NCBI RefSeq assembly: GCF_902168435.1
Contig: NZ_LR656164.1
Coordinates: 335,300-399,299 of the forward strand
Length of the DNA: 64,000 bases
Direction: 5' to 3'
DNA from: Bacillus marasmi
Lineage (GTDB): Bacteria > Bacillota > Bacilli > Bacillales > Cytobacillaceae
Under the pieces are notes generated by a model, which was not told where the DNA came from, did no database searches, and saw nothing but the letters and a program-made list of their open reading frames with translations. Below are positions 22,250 through 50,369 of the stretch, one piece after another. The position numbers were made by a program, and so were the translations under genes. Position 1 is the first letter of the stretch. Every line of letters begins with the position of its first letter.

Positions 22250-23596
22250 GTGGATGTATTACTCTTGAGTCGGTTGCAGTTTGCCATTACAGTTTTTTAC
22301 CACTTCTTGTTTGTGCCGATGACAATCGGAACAGTTATTTTAGTGGCTGTAATGGAAACAAAGTATGCTCGCTCGGGAAATGTGCTTTACCGCAACATGG
22401 CAGACTTCTGGGGAAAGCTATTTTCAATTAACTTTGTCCTCGGTGTTATTACGGGTATTACAATGGAGTTTCAGTTTGGGACGAACTGGTCAGAGTATTC
22501 AAGGTATGTAGGTGATATCTTTGGATCACCATTGGCAATTGAGGCACTATTAGCATTCTTTTTAGAGTCAACTTTTATGGGAATTTGGCTTTTTGGTAAA
22601 AACAAATTCTCACCAAAGATGCGCGCATTTGCCATCTGGATGGTTGCTTTAGGTACAAATATTTCTGCACTTTGGATTATTACTGCTAATGGATTTATGC
22701 AAAACCCAGTTGGATACACCTTAGCCAATGGAAGAGTAGAGCTAGAAAGCTTTAGTGCACTAGTAACAAATCCATATGCCTGGCGAATGTTTTTCCACAC
22801 TGTAATTGGATGTTACATAGTTGGCTCATTCTTCGTGATGGCTGTATCTGCTTATCATTTATTACGCAAAAATAACGTGGAATTTTTCAAAAAATCATTT
22901 AAATACGCCCTCGTGATGGCTTTGTTCGCAAGCACAGCCACCCCATTCTTAGGTCATCAATCCGGCGTGTTCGCAACCGAGATTCAACCAGCAAAAGGTG
23001 CTGCAATGGAAGCGGTTTGGGAAACACAAACAGGAATGCCTTTTCACATCATCCAAATCCCTGATCAAGAAAACAGAACAAATTCAATTGAATGGTTAAG
23101 TATACCAAAGCTAGGAAGCTTCTTCTATACGAACGATTTTGATGGAACAGTCACTGGACTCAATGATATTCCAGCAGATGAACAGCCACCGGTAAATCTA
23201 GTTTATTATAGCTTCCGGGCAATGGTGGTCCTTGGTATGGCATTTCTTGTCATAGCGTGGTATGGATTTTATCTCTATTGGAAGAATCGTCTAGTAAATT
23301 CACCTAAATATTTAAAATTAGTACTTTATTCAGTGCTGCTACCGTATCTTACCATTAACTTAGGTTGGATGGTTGCCGAAGTTGGACGTCAGCCGTGGTC
23401 TGTATATGGTTTGATGAAAACTGCTGATGCGGTCTCACCAATTGCTACCGGACAAATTTGGTTTTCACTGGTGAGCCTTGTTGCCTTCTATACTGTACTA
23501 TTAATAGCAGACGTATATTTGCTTGTAAAATACGCGAAAAAAGGACCGGAATCCTTAATGGTTGTCAAAGGAGGTACAGAAAGCCATGTCTCATGA
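22250..23596 (+). CDS. cydA: Cytochrome bd ubiquinol/menaquinol oxidase subunit I (first copy)
   Basis: CydA carries the three haems and the quinol site of the high-affinity oxidase. The 448-residue membrane protein has the conserved N-terminal RLQFAITVFYHFLFVP with the high-spin haem histidine, ITANGFMQNPVGY, and GRQPWSVYG. The Q-loop is short, as in Firmicutes. The start is GTG with GGAGGGG upstream. It overlaps cydB by 11 bases, so the subunits are translationally coupled. A second, diverged cydAB pair follows. Confidence 0.96.
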   Translation: MDVLLLSRLQFAITVFYHFLFVPMTIGTVILVAVMETKYARSGNVLYRNMADFWGKLFSINFVLGVITGITMEFQFGTNWSEYSRYVGDIFGSPLAIEALLAFFLESTFMGIWLFGKNKFSPKMRAFAIWMVALGTNISALWIITANGFMQNPVGYTLANGRVELESFSALVTNPYAWRMFFHTVIGCYIVGSFFVMAVSAYHLLRKNNVEFFKKSFKYALVMALFASTATPFLGHQSGVFATEIQPAKGAAMEAVWETQTGMPFHIIQIPDQENRTNSIEWLSIPKLGSFFYTNDFDGTVTGLNDIPADEQPPVNLVYYSFRAMVVLGMAFLVIAWYGFYLYWKNRLVNSPKYLKLVLYSVLLPYLTINLGWMVAEVGRQPWSVYGLMKTADAVSPIATGQIWFSLVSLVAFYTVLLIADVYLLVKYAKKGPESLMVVKGGTESHVS

Positions 23597-24611
23597 TACG
23601 TTGGCCGTAATTTGGTTTGGGTTATGGGGACTCATTTGGACGGTCTACATCTTTTTGGACGGTTATGATTTAGGGACTGGCATGCTATTTCCGTTTGTTG
23701 CAAAAAATCGCCCTGAACGAAATCAGCTTCAGGAAGCAATCGGGCCATTCTGGGGTGGTAATGAAGTATGGTTATTAACAGCCGGAGGAGCAACGTTTGC
23801 GGCGTTTCCGGGTGCCTATGCGGACATGTTCTCTTTCCTTTATGAGGCGATGTTTTTAATCCTATTCTCCTTATTCATCCGGGCAGTTGGTCTTGAGTTT
23901 ATGCATAAGCATGATTCGCCAAAATGGGTTAGTACCTGGAAATGGGCGTTTGCGGTAGCGAGTTTCTTGATTGCACTTCTGTTCGGAGTAGCATTTGCGA
24001 ATCTATATCGTGGTCTATTAATTGGCGAAGCTGGCTACGAGGGAAATCTAATAAGCTTGTTAAATCCATATGGTATTCTTGGAGGCTTGTTGTTTGTTGC
24101 GATGTTCCTCTTATCTGGCTCACTTTGGATTCAATTGAAGACCAACGGAGCTGCAGCTGATCGTTGTAAAAAATTAGCCAAACCTTTCTCAATGATAGCG
24201 GCAGGATTGTTAGCGATTTTCTTTGTAGCGACAATGAACTGGACACCACTACCAGATAATTTTAATGAAGTACCTTTCCTTTGGATTGTACCAAGCTTAT
24301 CACTACTGGCCATCTTTTTGACAGTATTCTTCGTTTATACAAATAAAACTGGACTTGCTTTTACAGGAGTTTGTTTAGCGATTATTACTCAAATGGCAAC
24401 CGGGTTCGTCGGTATGTTCCCGAATATGCTTGCTTCGAAAATTGATGATGCATACAGTGTAACTTTGTATGATGCTGCGGGTAGTGCCTTGAATTTAGAG
24501 GTCATGTTCACAGTAGCATTAATTTTCGTACCGATTGTCATTGCCTACCAGGTTTGGAGCTATTACTTATTTAGAGAGAAAATTACGAAGGAAAAAGCTA
24601 AAGGGTATTAG
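23586..24611 (+). CDS. cydB: Cytochrome bd oxidase subunit II (first copy)
   Basis: CydB is the haem-free partner of CydA. The 341-residue polytopic protein begins MSHDTLAVIWFGLWG and has FLDGYDLGTGML, GPFWGGNEVWLLTAGGATFAAFPG and a late ATGFVGMFPN segment. GGAGG lies upstream of the ATG inside the end of cydA. A strong terminator follows. No cydC or cydD genes are in the window. Confidence 0.96.
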   Translation: MSHDTLAVIWFGLWGLIWTVYIFLDGYDLGTGMLFPFVAKNRPERNQLQEAIGPFWGGNEVWLLTAGGATFAAFPGAYADMFSFLYEAMFLILFSLFIRAVGLEFMHKHDSPKWVSTWKWAFAVASFLIALLFGVAFANLYRGLLIGEAGYEGNLISLLNPYGILGGLLFVAMFLLSGSLWIQLKTNGAAADRCKKLAKPFSMIAAGLLAIFFVATMNWTPLPDNFNEVPFLWIVPSLSLLAIFLTVFFVYTNKTGLAFTGVCLAIITQMATGFVGMFPNMLASKIDDAYSVTLYDAAGSALNLEVMFTVALIFVPIVIAYQVWSYYLFREKITKEKAKGY

Positions 24612-25223: not shown

Positions 25224-26570
25224 ATGGAAGAAGTATTACTGTTAAGCAGATTGCAATTTGCGATTACAGTGTTTTATCATTTTCTATTTGTACCGTTAAC
25301 AATTGGACTTGTCATTCTAGTAGCAATCATGGAGACAAATTACGCGAGGACATTGAATCCACTATATCGAAACATGGCTGATTTCTGGGGTAAGCTTTTT
25401 TCGATAAATTTTGTACTTGGAGTTATTACCGGAATTACGATGGAGTTTCAATTTGGTACGAACTGGTCTGAGTATTCACGTTACGTCGGAGACATTTTCG
25501 GATCTCCACTCGCGATTGAAGCATTACTTGCATTTTTCCTTGAATCAACATTTATGGGAATCTGGTTATTTGGAAGAAATAAATTTTCACCAAAAATGCG
25601 CGCCTTCTCAATTTGGATGGTTGCATTAGGAACGAATATTTCAGCATTATGGATTATCACCGCAAATGGATTTATGCAAAACCCGGTCGGCTATAAATTA
25701 ACCGATGGACGAGTGGAATTACAAAGCTTTAGTGCTCTAGTAACTAATCCATATGCGTGGAACATGTTTTTCCACACAGTCATCTCTTGCTATATCGTTG
25801 GTTCATTTTTCGTCATGGCAGTGAGTGCTTATCATTTATTAAGAAAGAACAAAGTGGACTTTTTCAAAAAATCATTCAAATACGGACTTATAATGGCTGT
25901 GTTCGCAGCTACCGCAACACCGTTCTTAGGACATCAATCAGGCGTTTATGCAACTAGCGTTCAACCGGCGAAGGGAGCAGCGATGGAAGCTGTTTGGGAA
26001 ACACAAACAGAATTACCATTTAGCATTATCCAAATCCCAGACCCAGAAAACAAGAAAAACTTTGAAGCATTAACCATTCCTGGCTTAGGCAGCTTCTTCT
26101 ATACAAATAGCTTTGATGGAAAAGTAACCGGACTTAACGATATTCCGGAGGATGAACAGCCGAATGTTCCTTTAGTATACTATAGCTTCCGCGCCATGGT
26201 CGCACTTGGAGTATTTTTCATGGCATTAACATGGTATGGAGTGTACGTTTATCGCAAAAACCGTTTACTTGAGTCTAAAAAATACTTAAAGCTTGTTCTT
26301 TATTCAGTGTTATTACCGTATTTAGCGATTAACCTTGGCTGGATGGTGGCAGAAGTTGGCCGTCAACCGTGGGTTGTGTATGGATTAATGAAAACAACCG
26401 ACGCTGTTTCACCAATTTCCTTAGGTCAAATTGGCTTCTCACTCGTGAGTCTAGTGGTATTCTATACGGTATTATTAATTGCTGATGTTTACTTAATTAT
26501 TAAATATGCGAAACAAGGACCTGAAGTAGCGAAAGAAGCAAAAGGAGGGGAAGTAAGCTATGTCTCATGA
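25224..26570 (+). CDS. cydA: Cytochrome bd oxidase subunit I (second copy)
   Basis: A close paralogue of the CydA encoded at 22250, with the same 448-residue length and the same landmarks: RLQFAITVFYHFLFVP, ITANGFMQNPVGY and GRQPWVVYG. Differences cluster in the region after residue 260 and in the last membrane helices. It has its own ribosome site (GGGAGG) and probably its own promoter, so the two oxidases may be expressed under different conditions. The 11-base overlap with cydB is kept. Confidence 0.95.
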   Translation: MEEVLLLSRLQFAITVFYHFLFVPLTIGLVILVAIMETNYARTLNPLYRNMADFWGKLFSINFVLGVITGITMEFQFGTNWSEYSRYVGDIFGSPLAIEALLAFFLESTFMGIWLFGRNKFSPKMRAFSIWMVALGTNISALWIITANGFMQNPVGYKLTDGRVELQSFSALVTNPYAWNMFFHTVISCYIVGSFFVMAVSAYHLLRKNKVDFFKKSFKYGLIMAVFAATATPFLGHQSGVYATSVQPAKGAAMEAVWETQTELPFSIIQIPDPENKKNFEALTIPGLGSFFYTNSFDGKVTGLNDIPEDEQPNVPLVYYSFRAMVALGVFFMALTWYGVYVYRKNRLLESKKYLKLVLYSVLLPYLAINLGWMVAEVGRQPWVVYGLMKTTDAVSPISLGQIGFSLVSLVVFYTVLLIADVYLIIKYAKQGPEVAKEAKGGEVSYVS

Positions 26571-27585
26571 TGTGCTAGCAATTACGTGGTTTGGACTTTG
26601 GGGATTGATCTGGACCGTTTATATTTTCTTAGATGGATACACTCTTGGTACAGGTATGCTATTTCCATTCGTAACGAAAAACCGTCAAGAACGCAATCAA
26701 TTACAGGAAGCAATTGGCCCGTTTTGGGGCGGAAACGAAGTTTGGTTGTTAACTGCAGGTGGCGCAACATTTGCGGCATTCCCTGGTGCATACGCCGATA
26801 TGTTCTCCTTCCTTTATGAAGCGATGTTCTTAATTCTTTTCGCATTATTCATTCGGGCAACAGGACTTGAGTTTATGCATAAGGTTGATTCAGCTCGTTG
26901 GCAAAATTCGTGGAAATGGGCATTTGCAATTGCTAGTTTCTTGATTGCGCTCCTATTCGGAGTAGCGTTTGCAAACCTGTACCGCGGTTTGTTAATCGGG
27001 GCTAACGGTTATGAAGGAAATCTATTAAGCTTGCTAAATCCATATGGATTATTGGGTGGAATCTTATTTGTATCCATGTTCCTACTTTCTGGTTCGCTTT
27101 GGATCCAGCTAAAAACAACTGGGGCAGTAGCACAGCGTGTCAAAAAGTTAGCTCGAACTTTTTCAATGCTTGCGGCTGGAGTACTTGCCATCTTCTTTGT
27201 GGCTACAATGAATTGGACGCCGATTGCTGGTAATTTTAATGAAGTACCAGTGCTATGGATTATTCCAAGTTTATCATTAATTTCGATTTTACTTTCTGTC
27301 ATGTTTGTTTTTAAAGATAAAATTGGTGCTGCCTTTACAACGGTTTGCTTGGCAATTATTTTGCAAATGGCAACTGGATTTGTCGGTATGTTCCCGAATA
27401 TGCTAACTTCAATTATCGGCGATGAATTCAGCGTAACGCTTTATTCAGCAGCGGGAAGCGCCTTAAACTTAAAGGTCATGTTCACGGTAGCGGTCATTTT
27501 CGTTCCAATCATCATCGCCTACCAAGTTTGGAGCTACTTCTTATTCAAAGATAAAATCACAAAAGAAAGTGCAAAAGGATACTAA
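26560..27585 (+). CDS. cydB: Cytochrome bd oxidase subunit II (second copy)
   Basis: 341 residues, a paralogue of the CydB at 23586. The motifs GPFWGGNEVWLLTAGGATFAAFPG and ATGFVGMFPN are unchanged; DGYDLGTG has become DGYTLGTG, changing an acidic residue near the N-terminus. It completes a tandem duplication of the whole operon. A terminator follows. Confidence 0.95.
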   Translation: MSHDVLAITWFGLWGLIWTVYIFLDGYTLGTGMLFPFVTKNRQERNQLQEAIGPFWGGNEVWLLTAGGATFAAFPGAYADMFSFLYEAMFLILFALFIRATGLEFMHKVDSARWQNSWKWAFAIASFLIALLFGVAFANLYRGLLIGANGYEGNLLSLLNPYGLLGGILFVSMFLLSGSLWIQLKTTGAVAQRVKKLARTFSMLAAGVLAIFFVATMNWTPIAGNFNEVPVLWIIPSLSLISILLSVMFVFKDKIGAAFTTVCLAIILQMATGFVGMFPNMLTSIIGDEFSVTLYSAAGSALNLKVMFTVAVIFVPIIIAYQVWSYFLFKDKITKESAKGY

Positions 27586-36212: not shown

Positions 36213-36309
36213 GGGGCTGGATGGGGTACTGGTGTCCTCCGCGGTCTTCAAAACCGTCTGTGACCTGCGTGCCAGGTCAGGTGAGTTCGATTCTCACGCG
36301 GTCCCGCCA
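36213..36309 (+). tRNA. selC: tRNA-Sec, anticodon UCA
   Basis: About 97 bases including an encoded CCA end. The anticodon arm GCGGT-CTTCAAA-ACCGT shows UCA at 36248-36250. A long variable arm with a perfect 7-bp stem TGACCTG/CAGGTCA, the T arm GTGAG-TTCGATT-CTCAC, and a long acceptor stem GGGGCTGG/GCGGTCCC (7 pairs including G-U, with a mismatch at the eighth) are the hallmarks of bacterial selenocysteine tRNA. It has its own promoter and terminator. selA, selB and selD are not in the window and must lie elsewhere. An ordinary opal-suppressor serine tRNA is unlikely given the arm lengths. Confidence 0.94.
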
Positions 36310-43865: not shown

Positions 43866-43883
43866 TATACCCATACGGGTATA
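43866..43883 (+). promoter_or_regulatory. CsoR/CstR-type operator before the DsrE-like gene
   Basis: TATACCC-ATAC-GGGTATA is a perfect 7-4-7 palindrome about 60 bases before the start codon. CsoR-family repressors (copper sensor CsoR, persulfide sensor CstR) bind sites of this form. The genes served are sulfur-handling, so a CstR-like sensor is the better guess. Confidence 0.8.
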
Positions 43884-43942: not shown

Positions 43943-44338
43943 ATGAGTGAAAAGGTAGCAATTATCGCAAGCAATGGTGGATTATTTGATGCATATAAAG
44001 TATTTAATATTGCAACAGCAGCAGCTTCAATGGACCAAGAGGTTGCCATTTTCTTTACGTTTGAAGGGTTAAACTTAATTCATAAAGAAGCAAATAAACA
44101 ATTGCCTATGCCGGCAGGTAAAGAGCATTTTGCAGAGGGATTTGCAAAGGCAAATGTACCTTGCATCCCTGATATGCTCGCAATGGCACAAGAATTAGGA
44201 GTTAAATTAATTGGCTGTCAAATGACTATGGATGTTATGGGACTTGAAAAAGAAGTATTTGTCGATGAAATTGAAGTTGGTGGATCTGTTACATTCTTGC
44301 AATTTGCAAAAGATGCTGATGTTACGCTGACTTTTTAA
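43943..44338 (+). CDS. DsrE-like sulfur-relay protein
   Basis: 131-residue protein of the DsrE/DsrF superfamily (DsrE2-like), which carries sulfane sulfur on a cysteine. The candidate carrier is Cys92 in LIGCQMTMDVMG; Cys74 is in NVPCIPDM. The N-terminal SNGGLFDAYKVFNIATAA matches the nucleotide-like fold opening. GAGGAGG precedes the ATG, and a CsoR/CstR-type palindrome lies upstream. The neighbour carries reductase, rhodanese and TusA domains, so it probably works in the same sulfur relay. Confidence 0.88.
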   Translation: MSEKVAIIASNGGLFDAYKVFNIATAAASMDQEVAIFFTFEGLNLIHKEANKQLPMPAGKEHFAEGFAKANVPCIPDMLAMAQELGVKLIGCQMTMDVMGLEKEVFVDEIEVGGSVTFLQFAKDADVTLTF

Positions 44339-44506: not shown

Positions 44507-46450
44507 ATGATTCAGAAAGTAATCATCGTAGGTGGAGTTGCCGGTGGAGCAACAGCAGCAGCTAAGTTAAGAAGAATTAGTGAAGACGTGGAAATTATTC
44601 TTGTTGAACGTGGGGAATATATTTCATTTGCGAACTGTGGTTTACCTTATTATATAGGAGAAACAATTACCGATCGAAGCAAGTTATTAGTACAAACTGT
44701 AGAGGGAATGTCTAATCGTTTTAATATGGATATTCGAAATTTAAGTGAAGTAGTGAGCATTGATCCTGATCATCATACTGTAACGATTAAAAATTTACGA
44801 AATGGTGAAGAGTATAAAGAAACCTATGACAAATTATTATTATCACCTGGGGCAAGTCCGATTGTGCCACCAATTCCTGGTCTAAAGGAAAATGAAACAT
44901 TATTTACATTAAGAAATATTCCTGATACGGATAAAATAAAAAACTATGTGGATCAACAACATCCGAAGAAAGCTGTTGTTGTTGGTGGTGGATTTATCGG
45001 TATTGAAATGGCTGAGAACCTAGTTGATCGAGGGATTGAAGTAACAATTGTTGAAATGGCTAACCAAATAATGGCACCTATCGATTTTGAAATGGCAAGT
45101 ATTTTACACAGTCATTTAAAAGAAAAAGGTGTTCGGTTAATTTTAGAAAATGGAGTTCAGTCTTTTGCGGAAAATGGCAAGAAAATTATCCTATCTGATG
45201 GAACAGAAGTAGAAACAGATATGACGATTCTTTCTATTGGTGTAAGACCTGAAAATGAATTAGCGAAAAATGCCGGGCTAGAGCTCGGAGCACGTGGTCA
45301 TATTATTGTAAACGAATATCTGCAAACCTCAGATGAGGACATATATGCTGTGGGGGATGCCATTGAAGTAGTGGATTATATTAATGGCAGCAAAACAGCG
45401 ATTCCTCTTGCAGGACCGGCTAATAGACAAGGTCGAATTGCAGCGAAGAATATTATGGGACAAAAAGAGGAATATCAAGGAACTCTTGGTACATCTGTTG
45501 CGAAAGTATTCAATTTAACGGTAGCTTCAACTGGAAATAATGAAAAAACATTAAAACGAATCGGAACACCATATGAGGTTCTTCATATTCATCCAAGTTC
45601 TCATGCTGGGTATTATCCTGGGGCTGCTCAAATATCTTTAAAACTTATTTTTGACAAATCAACTGGTAAAATATATGGCGCACAAGCTGTTGGGGCAGAT
45701 GGAGTCGAAAAACGGATTGACGTTATTGCAACAGCGATCAAAGGTGGATTAACAGTAGAAGATTTAACCAATCTTGAATTATCCTATGCACCTCCATATT
45801 CTTCTGCAAAAGATCCAGTGAACATGGCAGGGTATGTTGCGACAAATTTAATGGAAGGTGAGTTAGAACATATTCAATGGCATGAAGTTGATCAAATTGT
45901 TGAAGATGGTGGACTGTTAATTGATGTCCGTGAACCAGTGGAGCGTGAATTTGGTTATATTAAGGGCTCTATCAATATTCCATTAAACGATCTTAGAAAT
46001 AGATTAAATGAAGTGCCAAAGGATAAAACGGTTTATGTAAGTTGTCAAGTTGGTTTGAGAGGATATTTAGCAAGCCAAATTTTGAAAAATAACGGATATC
46101 GTGTAAAAAACGTCGATGGTGGGTGGAAAACCTATTCTTCAGTCTTTGGCAGCAATATTCATGTTGATGTTGAGACAACAACGAATGATTTAGGTGAAAC
46201 CATTATTAGAGACGAAAATGATATAAAAGTGGATGAAGTTTTAGATGTAACCGGATTATCATGTCCAATGCCTATTGTGAAATTAAAAAAAGGCATAGAA
46301 TCAATTGAAAGTAATCAAATATTAGAACTTCACGCTACTGATAGGGGAACGTTAAGTGATTTACCTGCATGGTCAAACAATGCTGGACACACGATTCTAA
46401 AAACAGATCAAGACGGTCCGGTTATTAAATTCTGGATAAAAAAGAAATAA
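44507..46450 (+). CDS. CoA-disulfide reductase-rhodanese-TusA fusion
   Basis: 647-residue three-part protein. Residues about 1-440 are an FAD/NAD(P)H reductase of the CoA-disulfide or persulfide reductase type, with GGVAGGATAAAK and the single redox Cys44 in NCGLPYY. Residues about 450-545 are a rhodanese with Cys513 in YVSCQVGLRG. The last part, about 570-647, is a TusA-like domain with Cys586 in LSCPMPIVK. It could reduce CoA or protein persulfides and pass sulfur between domains. AGGAGG precedes ATG. It is probably induced by sulfane sulfur through the upstream operator. Rhodanese-fused CoA-disulfide reductases are known in Bacillus; the added TusA makes a complete relay. Confidence 0.93.
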   Translation: MIQKVIIVGGVAGGATAAAKLRRISEDVEIILVERGEYISFANCGLPYYIGETITDRSKLLVQTVEGMSNRFNMDIRNLSEVVSIDPDHHTVTIKNLRNGEEYKETYDKLLLSPGASPIVPPIPGLKENETLFTLRNIPDTDKIKNYVDQQHPKKAVVVGGGFIGIEMAENLVDRGIEVTIVEMANQIMAPIDFEMASILHSHLKEKGVRLILENGVQSFAENGKKIILSDGTEVETDMTILSIGVRPENELAKNAGLELGARGHIIVNEYLQTSDEDIYAVGDAIEVVDYINGSKTAIPLAGPANRQGRIAAKNIMGQKEEYQGTLGTSVAKVFNLTVASTGNNEKTLKRIGTPYEVLHIHPSSHAGYYPGAAQISLKLIFDKSTGKIYGAQAVGADGVEKRIDVIATAIKGGLTVEDLTNLELSYAPPYSSAKDPVNMAGYVATNLMEGELEHIQWHEVDQIVEDGGLLIDVREPVEREFGYIKGSINIPLNDLRNRLNEVPKDKTVYVSCQVGLRGYLASQILKNNGYRVKNVDGGWKTYSSVFGSNIHVDVETTTNDLGETIIRDENDIKVDEVLDVTGLSCPMPIVKLKKGIESIESNQILELHATDRGTLSDLPAWSNNAGHTILKTDQDGPVIKFWIKKK

Positions 46451-46581: not shown

Positions 46582-47004
46582 GTGACATTTTTAATTTTAA
46601 CTACGATAATTGTACTCTTTGTATTATATAATAGATACTTTCCAGTTTATGGGGTCCGTTATATTAATGTGGAAGCCCTTGACTTATATAACATGAATGT
46701 AATAGACGTAAGAGATTTTGATGAATCGTACAGGAACGCAGTTGTTGGAGCGATAAATATCCCAATCGCCTACTTAAACAGAAATATTAAGGAAATACCT
46801 AAAGAAGACTTATTTGTAGTCGCGTCAAATTCACTTGAAAAAAATGTTGGGATACGATTGTTAAGAAAAAAGGGTTTTCGGGTCATTGGATTTTCAATTC
46901 ACAATAAGCAAGAATTATTATTAAATACTAAAGTTCTAGGTGCAAATAGTGGCTTAGGGGAACAAATGGATGAAAACCGAGTATCTGTATGCAACAAGAT
47001 ATAA
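46582..47004 (+). CDS. Membrane-anchored rhodanese-like protein without active-site cysteine
   Basis: 140 residues: an N-terminal membrane helix (about 2-20), then a rhodanese fold with NVIDVRDFDESYRNAVVGAINIPI. At the active-site loop, where a C-x4-R loop is expected, the sequence reads VVASNSLEKN, so it cannot carry sulfur there. Its only Cys is near the C-terminus. The start is GTG with GGAGG upstream. It may be a scaffold or a decayed sulfurtransferase. Confidence 0.82.
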   Translation: MTFLILTTIIVLFVLYNRYFPVYGVRYINVEALDLYNMNVIDVRDFDESYRNAVVGAINIPIAYLNRNIKEIPKEDLFVVASNSLEKNVGIRLLRKKGFRVIGFSIHNKQELLLNTKVLGANSGLGEQMDENRVSVCNKI

Positions 47005-47119: not shown

Positions 47120-47791
47120 TTACTGCTGTTTCTCTTTTATTTTTTTATACCATATTATGTGTCTATGCTTTACATAATCTTCCTCAACATATCCAGTAAT
47201 CATCCCCGGTAGTAGTTTCCGATTTGCTTTCACGATAAAAGCTGCAAGATGAGCTATGATTAGAAAAATAAGAACAAAGGTAGCGATGTTATGAATGGTA
47301 GTTGAAATATATACAATTGAGTGTGGTATGGAAATAAAGGATACATTTTTTCCAATTTTAATAAATCCAGTGATGACAAGTGCTAGTATGGTTACCCCTA
47401 TTGCTAGATATGCAAGTCTCTGTTCTGCAAGATATTTTTCACTAGGTGGTTCCTCACCCTTAGTTATCATTGCTTTTATGATTTTCCAAGATTCCTTTAC
47501 ATCTCCACGTTTGGGAATTGCATCATACTCTTTCATGAAAAAGTGAATAAACATGTGATAAAAAACAATAAAAATCAGTAGAATAGCACCAATATAATGC
47601 ATTGCTAGTGTTATGGAATAATCTCCTAGCCATTCAGCTCCTGGTAGTTTGACAATATTGTAGCGCTTATACATGGGCATTTGACCTAGCCCGCTAATAA
47701 TAAGGGAAAAAATAGATAGAACGATTCCCCAATGAACAAGACGATTTGATAGATTTTGTCTATAAATTTTCCTCGGTTTATTCTTCATCAT
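47120..47791 (-). CDS. Formate-dehydrogenase-type cytochrome b subunit
   Basis: 223-residue membrane protein with four main helices and histidines placed as haem ligands, in NRLVHWGIVLS, LAMHYIGAILL, FYHMFIHFF, TTIHNIA and LIIAHLAAF. This is the fold of FdnI/PhsC-like cytochrome b subunits that pass electrons between a Tat-exported Fe-S/molybdenum enzyme and menaquinone. It overlaps the Fe-S gene by 14 bases. No molybdopterin catalytic subunit is next to it. Confidence 0.88.
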   Translation of the reverse strand: MMKNKPRKIYRQNLSNRLVHWGIVLSIFSLIISGLGQMPMYKRYNIVKLPGAEWLGDYSITLAMHYIGAILLIFIVFYHMFIHFFMKEYDAIPKRGDVKESWKIIKAMITKGEEPPSEKYLAEQRLAYLAIGVTILALVITGFIKIGKNVSFISIPHSIVYISTTIHNIATFVLIFLIIAHLAAFIVKANRKLLPGMITGYVEEDYVKHRHIIWYKKIKEKQQ

Positions 47792-48796
47792 GTCCTTTAT
47801 TTCCTTTCAGTTTATTATATGCGGTAAATCCTGCGGCTGCGATACCGGCAATGGGTGCAATCACTGCGCTAAGTGCCATTCCACTAAGACTGTCTAGTTT
47901 ATTATCCATTTCCACTTCCATGTGGGGAAGACCAGGTTTCAGATCATTTGTTTCTTGCTTCTTTCTTTTGATAGCGTTGTCAATTGATTCAAAAGGAACC
48001 TTTGATACATAAAACGTTGATGTTCCACCATTCTCTTTATCACCATAAACAAATCCAGATACTTCCTTTGCACGGGAGTATGCTAAATCCTTCATTTCTT
48101 GTTTCGTTCCGAATGAAATTGCCCCCTTAGGACAAGCCGTTACACAAGCGGGTTCTTTACCTTCTTTTAGAAGATCGGCGCATAAATCACATTTATACAT
48201 AACCCCTCCACCTAAGTATTCAGGAGCGAGTTTCATGTATAAACCAACTCCAGCTTGTCTTTGTGGTATATCCCAAGGACAAACATCGCGACATTTTGCC
48301 CTCCCATGCATTGCTCATCATTGATAACGACAGCCCCATTTTCATCTTTCTTAATAGCACTAAAAGGACAAACTCCACCGCAAGTAGGGTTATCACAATG
48401 CATACATCTCCTAGGAACAAATACATTTTCAGTTGTACCATTGTACTGAACTTCTACTTTGTCCACGAATGTCCAATTGTATGGAGTTAATCGGTTTGTC
48501 AAATCTTGCTTGTCTGACCAGTCTTCATATGTTTTCTGTGGCCAATACGGTTTTATTTTTTCATGATCTACCTTTGGAAATTTATCTTGGTTTTTTGTTC
48601 GACATGCTAATACACATTCAGGGGTGTCCTTTGCAGAACAGCCATCACAAAGGGTAAGATCAATCACAGTCCCTTTTTCTGATGACTGATCCGATTGTGC
48701 AAATGCTTTGTCTGCTCCTGACAAAACAACAGTCCCTAATAATACAGCACCACTAGAATTTTTTATAAAATCACGTCTTGATACTTGATTACTCAT
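47778..48796 (-). pseudogene. Tat-exported four-cluster Fe-S protein, frameshifted
   Basis: Electron-transfer subunit of the FdnH/HybA/PhsB type. A Tat signal (SRRDFIKN, then hydrophobic stretch) starts it, four cysteine clusters follow, and a C-terminal membrane helix (residues LSGMALSAVIAPIAGIAAAG) anchors it. The reading frame breaks near 48300: after QCMGG the frame shifts to AKCRDVCPWDI. The break falls on the second Cys codon of a C-x2-C-x2-C-x3-C motif and could be mended by one added base. It is either a real lesion or an assembly error. The start at MSNQ has GGAGG upstream. A CsoR/CstR-type operator lies directly upstream. Confidence 0.82.
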
Positions 48797-48810
48797 GTTA
48801 GCCTCCAATT

Positions 48811-48857
48811 ATACCTTATAGGGTATTTGTTAATAAGTAATATACTACATAGGGTAT
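48811..48857. promoter_or_regulatory. Two CsoR/CstR-type operator sites before the Fe-S gene
   Basis: ATACCT-TATA-GGGTAT at 48811-48826 lies just upstream of the Fe-S ribosome site. ATACTA-CATA-GGGTAT at 48842-48857 keeps one perfect half. Together with the site at 49010 they flank a shared divergent control region. Confidence 0.72.
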
Positions 48858-49009
48858 AATAGATAATCAATAGATTCTGAAAAAATGATATCGAAATAAT
48901 AATTTGTTGTGACAAATCTGACAAAATTAAGATGGACATTTAATAAAACTAACTCCGCTGACTTGTTTTAGAGCTAACACACCTTTTTAAAAAAATACAT
49001 CTTTACTAA

Positions 49010-49025
49010 ATACCCCTAAGGGTAT
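49010..49025 (+). promoter_or_regulatory. CsoR/CstR-type operator before the selenoprotein gene
   Basis: ATACCC-CTAA-GGGTAT is a perfect 6-4-6 palindrome about 105 bases before the start codon of the predicted selenoprotein. It matches the other sites in the cluster. Confidence 0.8.
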
Positions 49026-49130
49026 AAAATAAAGCTATAGGTAGTATGACGGCTACCTTTAGAGCAGAACAAAGTTTAATTGGAATCCTGAATAAAAATG
49101 ATGAAAATACAAAATTTAGGAGGAAATAAT

Positions 49131-49307
49131 ATGTCTAAAGAACCAAACAAAATGGATGATTGCGCGACTACTGGTTCTTGAGGAATTACGAGACCAAACG
49201 TTTCTGGCGATGGAAAACAGGTTAAACAACCGATTCCGATATGACCTGGTACGTTTGTATGGCTCCTGGTAGGAGCAATTTACTTGATATACAAAGCTTT
49301 CAGCTAA
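49131..49307 (+). CDS. Predicted small membrane selenoprotein with two selenocysteines
   Basis: An ATG with AGGAGG upstream opens a 58-codon frame that ends at TAA if two in-frame TGA codons, 49179-49181 and 49242-49244, are read as Sec17 and Sec38. The N-terminal part reads DDCATTGSUGITRPN and then QPIPIUPGTF, followed by one membrane helix (about 41-54) and YKAFS. Cys11 could pair with Sec17. Each TGA is followed at 22-24 bases by a hairpin with G in the first two loop positions, as in bacterial SECIS elements. selC is in the same window. The gene has a CsoR/CstR-type operator and sits between a divergent Fe-S/cytochrome b pair and a thioredoxin-reductase-like gene. I do not recognise the family; a redox role is inferred. 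Confidence 0.85.
49200..49218 (+). promoter_or_regulatory. SECIS-like hairpin for the first UGA
   Basis: GTTTCT pairs with GGAAAAC (one bulged A, one U-G) around loop GGCGAT. The loop starts 25 bases after the UGA and begins GG, as bacterial SECIS elements require. Confidence 0.75.
49262..49276 (+). promoter_or_regulatory. SECIS-like hairpin for the second UGA
   Basis: Perfect five-base-pair stem GCTCC/GGAGC around loop TGGTA. The loop starts 23 bases after the UGA and has G in position two. It lies inside the membrane-helix codons, so both coding and RNA structure are under constraint. Confidence 0.8.
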
Positions 49308-49379
49308 TTCTTACTTTTGATCACGCACAGAGGCTATAAATAAACCTATTAGGATACATCCCTTGGGTTGAAAATATAA

Positions 49380-50369
<990 letters not shown>

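Follow-up and report, generated by a model that had tools for sequence, protein, structure and literature searches.

A small gene with two in-frame UGA codons, mostly near sulfur genes in Bacillus relatives, and a SECIS hairpin that may serve both

A short reading frame at positions 49131 to 49307 of a Bacillus marasmi sequence is interrupted by two UGA codons, which raises the questions of whether it is a gene for a protein with two selenocysteine (Sec) residues, how two stop codons in one small gene could be recoded, and what such a protein would do. The whole stretch of DNA that was analysed, 64,000 nucleotides long, is called the window here. The original prediction, made from the sequence alone, was that of an overlooked membrane protein with two selenocysteines. 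The short frame, the ribosome site, the two in-frame UGAs and the UAA end that it described were all confirmed by reading the sequence, and the selC gene that it placed in the same window was located. The features of the gene are:

49131..49307, + strand: gene for a membrane protein with two selenocysteines, 58 codons and a TAA stop (direct reading and homologues)
49118..49123, + strand: ribosome-binding site AGGAGG, 7 nt upstream of the ATG (direct reading)
49179..49181, + strand: first Sec-UGA (U1), residue 17, motif C-x5-U-G (reading; Cys in Halalkalibacter oceani, L153)
49242..49244, + strand: second Sec-UGA (U2), residue 38, motif P-x-U-P-G, where the membrane helix begins (replaced by Cys in Peribacillus saganii, L128)
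36213..36309, + strand: selC, tRNA-Sec

The frame starts with ATG at 49131 and ends with TAA at 49305-49307; with UGA read as U, its translation is MSKEPNKMDDCATTGSUGITRPNVSGDGKQVKQPIPIUPGTFVWLLVGAIYLIYKAFS (58 residues). The clean membrane helix expected after the second UGA was recovered by AlphaFold2, which, with a 39-member alignment, modelled residues 39-57, directly behind U38, as the single confident helix and everything before it with low confidence (mean pLDDT 67.8, pTM 0.33; final two blocks 95 and 94). For 92 named members, the top-scoring 19-residue segment has a mean Kyte-Doolittle value of 2.05, and the net charge of the part ahead of it averages +3.5; by the positive-inside rule, this charge ahead of the helix suggests that the N-terminus is probably inside the cell. 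It is very probable that this is a real, conserved gene with two Sec codons, accompanied by hairpin B, helix A and the operon and palindrome context described below, for a small, predicted membrane-anchored double-Sec protein.

Conservation of the frame across genomes was found to exceed what chance would give. Homologues with both UGAs aligned in register, one per genome, were found in 26 of 101 genomes (the window's own plus 100 relatives); the alignment, A1, excluded L002, L023, L028 and L030 of L001-L030. Searched against the order (397 genomes), the 26-member profile gave 54 matches, spread over 53 genomes; of these matches, 47 have exactly two TGAs and no further stop, three have two TGAs and an extra stop or a third TGA (the second copy in G713, G757 and G062), and two have a single TGA (G762 and G763). 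The TGA-less matches in G684 and G832 were left uncounted, giving 51 family genomes in the order set, and weak TGA-less matches in general (G684, G832, G046, G075, G086 and the like) were excluded from the family. The copy in G062 (L016) has its third in-frame TGA soon after the likely start, which could represent a third Sec, a different start or a broken copy. The same profile, at E 0.01, matched 30 of the 101 genomes of relatives, of which 29 were counted, including a remnant in G020. Across the phylum (398 genomes), it recovered the window's own genome, G007 of the same family and one clear member from another class (G447), along with five additional, weak matches. A match in a viral contig (L205), the only one in viral contigs, was rejected as a chance hit outside the family.

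A DNA pattern scan of 84,980 species genomes, which accepted any of TGA, TGC and TGT at U2, yielded 97 stretches; the second half of the gene is in frame in all 97 and the first half is too in 93. At U2, 96 of these loci have TGA and one has TGT (Peribacillus saganii); at U1, which is unreadable in L108, L147, L155 and L202, TGA is present in 92 of 93 loci and TGT in one (Halalkalibacter oceani). The original prediction had named random codons or stops at the UGA positions of homologues as an outcome that would speak against it, and what was found instead, with U and Cys both allowed, is that U, rarely C, is retained at both positions. Each change from Sec to Cys is a single case, and each Sec thus has a Cys counterpart, which is the usual criterion for a selenoprotein; no homologue with Cys at both sites was seen in the searches of relatives, order and phylum or in the 97-locus scan. 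Bacillota is named in 78 of the 80 titles listed for the 97 loci, and members include Neobacillus, Mesobacillus (M. selenatarsenatis SF-1 among them), Cytobacillus, Robertmurraya, Rossellomorea, Alkalihalophilus pseudofirmus OF4, Salipaludibacillus and Aneurinibacillus. Two records that carry the gene are titled Chryseobacterium sp. ISL-80 (L123) and Pseudomonas sp. ISL-84 (L156); the Chryseobacterium title is probably wrong. One member (L138) has no Cys ahead of the first Sec.

Differences between the linkers of related copies (200 pairs of linkers) fall mostly at third codon positions (1417, vs 485 and 299 at the other two). An ordinary gene, another frame and a chance open reading frame were ruled out by this codon-position statistic, by the conservation described above and by the frozen codons of hairpin B.

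The genome that contains the window encodes the machinery for selenocysteine: the search for selA, selB and selD called for by the prediction found all of them (562, 361.5 and 392.5 bits, respectively) in addition to selC. In this genome, selD too is a selenoprotein gene and contains a single in-frame TGA (G000:C33:149065-149991, L204). SelB exceeded the cut-off in 179 of the 397 genomes of the order, namely in 48 of the 51 family genomes vs 131 of the 346 others (Fisher P 2.4e-15, uncorrected for kinship). Among the relatives, it was found in 28 of 29 family genomes vs 45 of 72 others (P 2e-4), a count that includes G002, whose SelB match contains five stops. G648, an exception in the SelB count, has selC and a fragmented assembly (480 contigs). 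In three family genomes, G713, G785 and G056, neither selB nor selC was found over the cut-offs, and G713 holds an intact and a broken copy of the gene together, without Sec machinery. All three have one island in common: over stretches exceeding 3 kb, the copy in G056 is 92.6-96.6% identical to the copies in G785, G713 and the SelB-bearing G515. This sulfur island with the Sec gene thus occurs in different genera (L088, L094, L097, L098 and L207), three of the hosts being without selB and selC, and the 387-kb plasmid pBO1 of Cytobacillus oceanisediminis has a peptide and gene order identical to that island. The gene is also present on two further Cytobacillus plasmids (377 and 383 kb) and on one of Mesobacillus foraminis (551 kb). 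The presence of the island in hosts without selB and selC, along with the plasmid copies, is read as transfer into hosts that would be expected to be unable to decode the gene, which can thus apparently come to occupy genomes where it should be unreadable.

With regard to how the two UGAs could be recoded, three RNA elements are relevant:

49260..49278, + strand: hairpin B (SECIS), UGGCUCC-UGGUA-GGAGCAA, 15 nt after U2 (bSECIS model, frozen codons)
49195..49201, + strand: helix A 5' arm, CAAACGU, beginning 13 nt after U1 (pairing and coevolution)
49251..49257, + strand: helix A 3' arm, ACGUUUG, past U2 and ahead of hairpin B (pairing and coevolution)

The bSECIS model, as set out in a 2026 inventory, specifies a loop of 3-9 nt with G in the first two positions, a distance of 16-37 nt and a cut-off of -7.5 kcal/mol (PMC13188914). 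Hairpin B resembles the standard bacterial SECIS described there in having a stem of at most 7 bp, a UGGUA loop with G as the second base and 22 nt from UGA to loop (PMC13188914). Its energy in the window is -9.6 kcal/mol, and the second pair from its base is a G-A mismatch. The model was satisfied by hairpin B in 47 of 49 members vs 24% of 735 synonymous shuffles. These 49 distinct members are a protein-similarity set retrieved with a pattern in which U is obligatory at the first site, so the constancy of U1 was taken from the order profile and the 97-locus scan; conversely, the pattern behind the 97 loci fixes hairpin B, so hairpin B was assessed on the 49 members. The hairpin's codons, TGG-CTC-CTG-GYA-GGA, are nearly frozen (CTG in 49/49, CTC in 45/49, GYA in 48/49 and GGA in 49/49), whereas among the Leu codons elsewhere in the genes of the family CTC accounts for 2/109 and CTG for 12/109. 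Across members, the RNA folds as UGGCUCC-UGGYA-GGAGUCA, and the freezing of these codons suggests that part of the conservation of the WLLVG protein motif may be driven by RNA.

The original prediction had placed a SECIS hairpin behind each UGA. The second of these (loop UGGUA) stood and is strongly conserved, but the first (loop GGCGAU), which can be drawn in the window at -5.3 kcal/mol vs the published cut-off of -7.5, is weak and unconserved, and within the window the bSECIS model was satisfied at U2 only. A hairpin that conforms to the model lies behind U1 in 21 of 49 members vs 22% of synonymous shuffles. A separate standard SECIS at U1 is not supported, as it is not conserved across the 49 members.

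Instead, the regions of the two UGAs are connected by helix A, in which bases starting 12-15 nt past U1 (in 27/43 and 26/48 members) pair with the approximately 14 bases that follow U2. Its mean energy is -12.7 kcal/mol, vs -8.8 in synonymous shuffles, and it reaches -9 kcal/mol or lower in 43 of 49 members vs 41% of shuffles. The two arms coevolve: none of 20,000 re-pairings of arms between members was as good (z -12.2; -8.6 when re-paired within linker length and -11.1 within GC class), whereas three control pairings gave z values of -1.7 (1059/20,000 as good), 0.4 and -0.2. This test used 56 members thinned from 109 such that arms were less than 70% alike, with the tree not modelled. RNAalifold, run on fixed columns by linker length, found helix A in none of seven classes and hairpin B in all seven, two of the classes giving other, weak pairings; the position of helix A shifts between members. 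The fold of the window's own copy is by itself unexceptional (z -1.39, 24/200 shuffles as good), its centroid holds both helix A and hairpin B, and a search of 48700-49500 against Rfam in evalue mode gave no match.

When helix A is formed, the most frequent distance from U1 to hairpin B is 15 nt (13/43 and 12/48 members), the same as that from U2 to hairpin B; it lies within 14-18 nt in 51% of members vs 20% of shuffles. The values scatter widely, between 4 and 21 nt, with a single case of 40 nt. The match in spacing between U1 and U2 suggests that one SECIS may serve both UGAs. Hairpin B would be the SECIS of the gene, and helix A would loop out the segment that contains U2 and bring U1 to about 15 nt from hairpin B, so that SelB bound there could decode U1; the ribosome would then melt helix A and reach U2, with hairpin B once more 15 nt ahead. 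A shared role of hairpin B for both UGAs is put at a little under even odds. Helix A with its inner loop could also be a non-standard SECIS of U1's own, leaving hairpin B to serve U2 only. The position at which helix A begins relative to U1 is indeed like that of a SECIS stem, and the rate at which some model-conforming hairpin is found behind U1 is twice that in shuffled sequences. On the other hand, the loop of helix A, compared by eye, has only the bases that code for P-P-I-Sec in common, its length tracks that of the linker, and the member with Cys at U2 (L055) retains hairpin B, even if it is among the weakest of the family at -7.5 kcal/mol. Two elements are a real possibility, judged somewhat less likely than not. 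The arrangement differs from the standard bacterial SECIS in that a coevolving long-range helix links the UGA regions and can give U1 a spacing to hairpin B similar to that of U2.

The genes around the selenoprotein gene point to sulfur metabolism, a setting that is absent from the original prediction. In the window, these include:

43943..44338, + strand: DsrE/DsrF/DrsH-like protein of the sulfane-sulfur carrier type (PF13686)
44507..46450, + strand: fusion of pyridine nucleotide-disulphide oxidoreductase, rhodanese and TusA (PF07992, PF00581, PF01206)
46582..47004, + strand: rhodanese-like protein (BLAST cluster; no Pfam match)
49392..50369, + strand: thioredoxin-reductase-like flavoprotein, downstream of the selenoprotein gene (PF07992; CAVCDG motif by reading)

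The fusion is taken by us to be CoA-disulfide-reductase-like, and the CAVCDG motif presumably marks the flavoprotein as thioredoxin-reductase-like. By eye, a gene at 47778-48808 on the - strand looks like that of an iron-sulfur subunit with a twin-arginine-like start; it consists of two overlapping frames, with a frameshift at the cysteine cluster, and is divergent from the selenoprotein gene, with which it has the palindromes in common. Elsewhere in the window, adjacent similar gene pairs at 22250-24611 and 25224-27585 look, again by eye, like duplicate cytochrome bd oxidase operons.

Neighbourhoods were compared in 41 regions minus the broken copies L066, L084 and L099, that is, in 38 regions with an intact gene, the window included; neighbours were named from Pfam scans of representatives and from plasmid annotation. 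Of the 38 regions, 31 contain a gene of the sulfur set no more than 6.5 kb away, vs none of 20 control stretches from elsewhere on the same contigs, with at least three such genes in 22 regions and at least five in 16; in seven regions, no member of the set was found within 6.5 kb. The families represented are rhodanese (23 of 38 regions), DsrE (21), persulfide-dioxygenase-type MBL-rhodanese (19), TauE (17), TusA-rhodanese (17), TusA (15), CsoR-type repressor (11), glutaredoxin (10) and the CoA-disulfide-reductase-like fusion (6). Among clustered neighbours, the rhodanese, DsrE, MBL, TauE, TusA, repressor and glutaredoxin genes are all on the same strand as the Sec gene, as is the fusion in three of its six regions. 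In 22 of 38 regions, a sulfur gene is the nearest gene upstream, on the same strand and no more than 300 nt away; in three (L077, L083 and L096), one comes next downstream. Genes for TrxR-, TlpA-, CcdA- or glutaredoxin-like proteins (redoxin and CcdA by annotation) adjoin the Sec gene in some regions.

Operator-like palindromes were found in the same part of the window:

49010..49025: palindrome ATACCCCTAAGGGTAT, operator-like, 105 nt ahead of the start codon
48811..48826: operator-like palindrome with 1 mismatch, in the divergent promoter region
48842..48857: operator-like palindrome with 2 mismatches
43867..43882: operator-like palindrome immediately ahead of the DsrE gene

The palindrome ATACCC-N4-GGGTAT is a putative CstR/CsoR operator. 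With up to two mismatches, it occurs 136 times in the 38 regions vs 5-14 times in five base shuffles. A similar pattern has five matches in the window vs 0.39 expected, four of which precede the DsrE gene and the Sec gene. A copy of the palindrome also precedes the core of the Sec gene, by 67-166 nt, in four of the seven regions without the sulfur set (L068, L071, L075 and L078); in the other three (L086, L090 and L104), none was found close to the gene.

As selenols react rapidly with sulfane sulfur, the persulfides of TusA, DsrE or rhodanese could donate sulfur to the protein. Genomic context and motifs together tentatively suggest a membrane-anchored redox relay for sulfane sulfur, a role that is conceivable without being favoured by the odds. 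Persulfide stress would lift a CstR-type repressor and the gene would be read with two Sec; the flexible basic N-terminal arm would carry the Cys-x(2-5)-Sec pair, and Pro-x-Sec-Pro-Gly would sit at the start of the transmembrane helix. Such a relay could be charged with sulfane sulfur by carriers encoded nearby (TusA, DsrE and rhodanese), and Cys together with thioredoxin- or glutaredoxin-type partners could re-reduce it, releasing sulfide. The TrxR-, TlpA-, CcdA- and glutaredoxin-like neighbours in some regions fit this re-reduction step.

The main rival to a sulfane-sulfur role is that Cys and Sec act as ligands for metals or metalloids, the protein handling metals, tellurium or selenium. 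The repressor family is annotated as metal-sensitive, copper genes lie farther along in L206, and several hosts are reputed metalloid reducers; the near neighbours, however, are dioxygenase-like MBL-rhodanese, TusA, DsrE, rhodanese and TauE, as in the sulfane-sulfur cluster of YrkD, and metal handling is considered unlikely. A different proposal, that the short gene with its two UGAs and RNA structure is a selenium-sensing leader or attenuator whose read-through regulates downstream genes while the protein itself is irrelevant, would fit the three regions with a sulfur gene next downstream. Yet the sulfur gene is directly upstream in far more regions, and the residues flanking the UGAs are conserved as protein, which makes a leader very improbable. 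The broken copies in L066, L084 and L099 could be taken to mean that UGA is decoded as another amino acid or that the frame is a chance or dead one, but UGA apparently also terminates the selenoprotein gene in L003, L004 and L014, and the Sec/Cys pairs at both sites, the association with SelB and the frozen SECIS codons leave this reading, refuted in the main, with next to no probability. The sulfane-sulfur relay remains the preferred, if tentative, role for the protein.

The expectation that no known selenoprotein family would fit was borne out in NCBIfam, Pfam, PDB and the 119-family inventory. Pfam searches with 39 members gave only five scattered weak families (best E 0.015), a PDB profile search with the family gave no match, and a description of the family was not found in the literature searched, a scope that left out most subscription journals and all preprints. 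The gene had also been expected to be missing from normal annotation, and in all four plasmid records that carry it no feature is annotated there, the gene table being incomplete by its own description. Homology searches for selenoproteins lean on Cys forms (PMC12013277). The near absence of Cys forms here is likely why such searches overlooked the family, and the gap in the catalogues is thus likely due to this method. The full reading, that one SECIS would serve two UGAs in turn by means of a coevolved helix and that the product would be a near-obligate double-selenol protein of persulfide operons missed by the catalogues, is given a probability of roughly 0.4. The analysis adds a conserved family of predicted selenoproteins outside the catalogues searched and ties selenocysteine to bacterial persulfide handling. 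It also presents a small coding RNA in which a single signal may suffice for the recoding of two stop codons.

Compared with known selenoproteins, the family shares UGA-encoded Sec, a SECIS behind the UGA, a Cys-x-x-Sec-like motif and a host with SelA/B/C/D with the 119 prokaryotic families and subfamilies listed in Table 1 of the 2026 inventory (PMC13188914). By name, domain and motif, none of the families in that table combines approximately 45-60 residues, Cys-x(2-5)-Sec, P-x-Sec-P-G and one membrane helix, and the near absence of Cys forms sets the present family further apart from those listed (PMC13188914). A similar local motif is found in the selenobacteriocin TIGR04081 of the same table, which has two Sec and an SGUG motif (PMC13188914); TIGR04081 was not among the matches when 26 members were compared with NCBIfam up to E 10; the only matches were two unrelated weak ones. 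With regard to operons, the neighbourhood resembles the yrk cluster of Bacillus licheniformis, whose YrkD is a sulfane-sulfur sensor (PMC9918477), and the Staphylococcus aureus cst operon (PMC5480029) in its CsoR-type repressor, DsrE and TusA-rhodanese, as well as in its dioxygenase-like MBL, TusA and TauE. In the portions of these two sources that are available, no selenoprotein is listed for YrkD-YrkE-YrkF-YrkH-YrkI-YrkJ or for cst (PMC9918477, PMC5480029), whereas here a two-Sec gene is added to the set, which suggests that in Bacillus relatives the operons for sulfane sulfur often contain one gene beyond the annotation examined.
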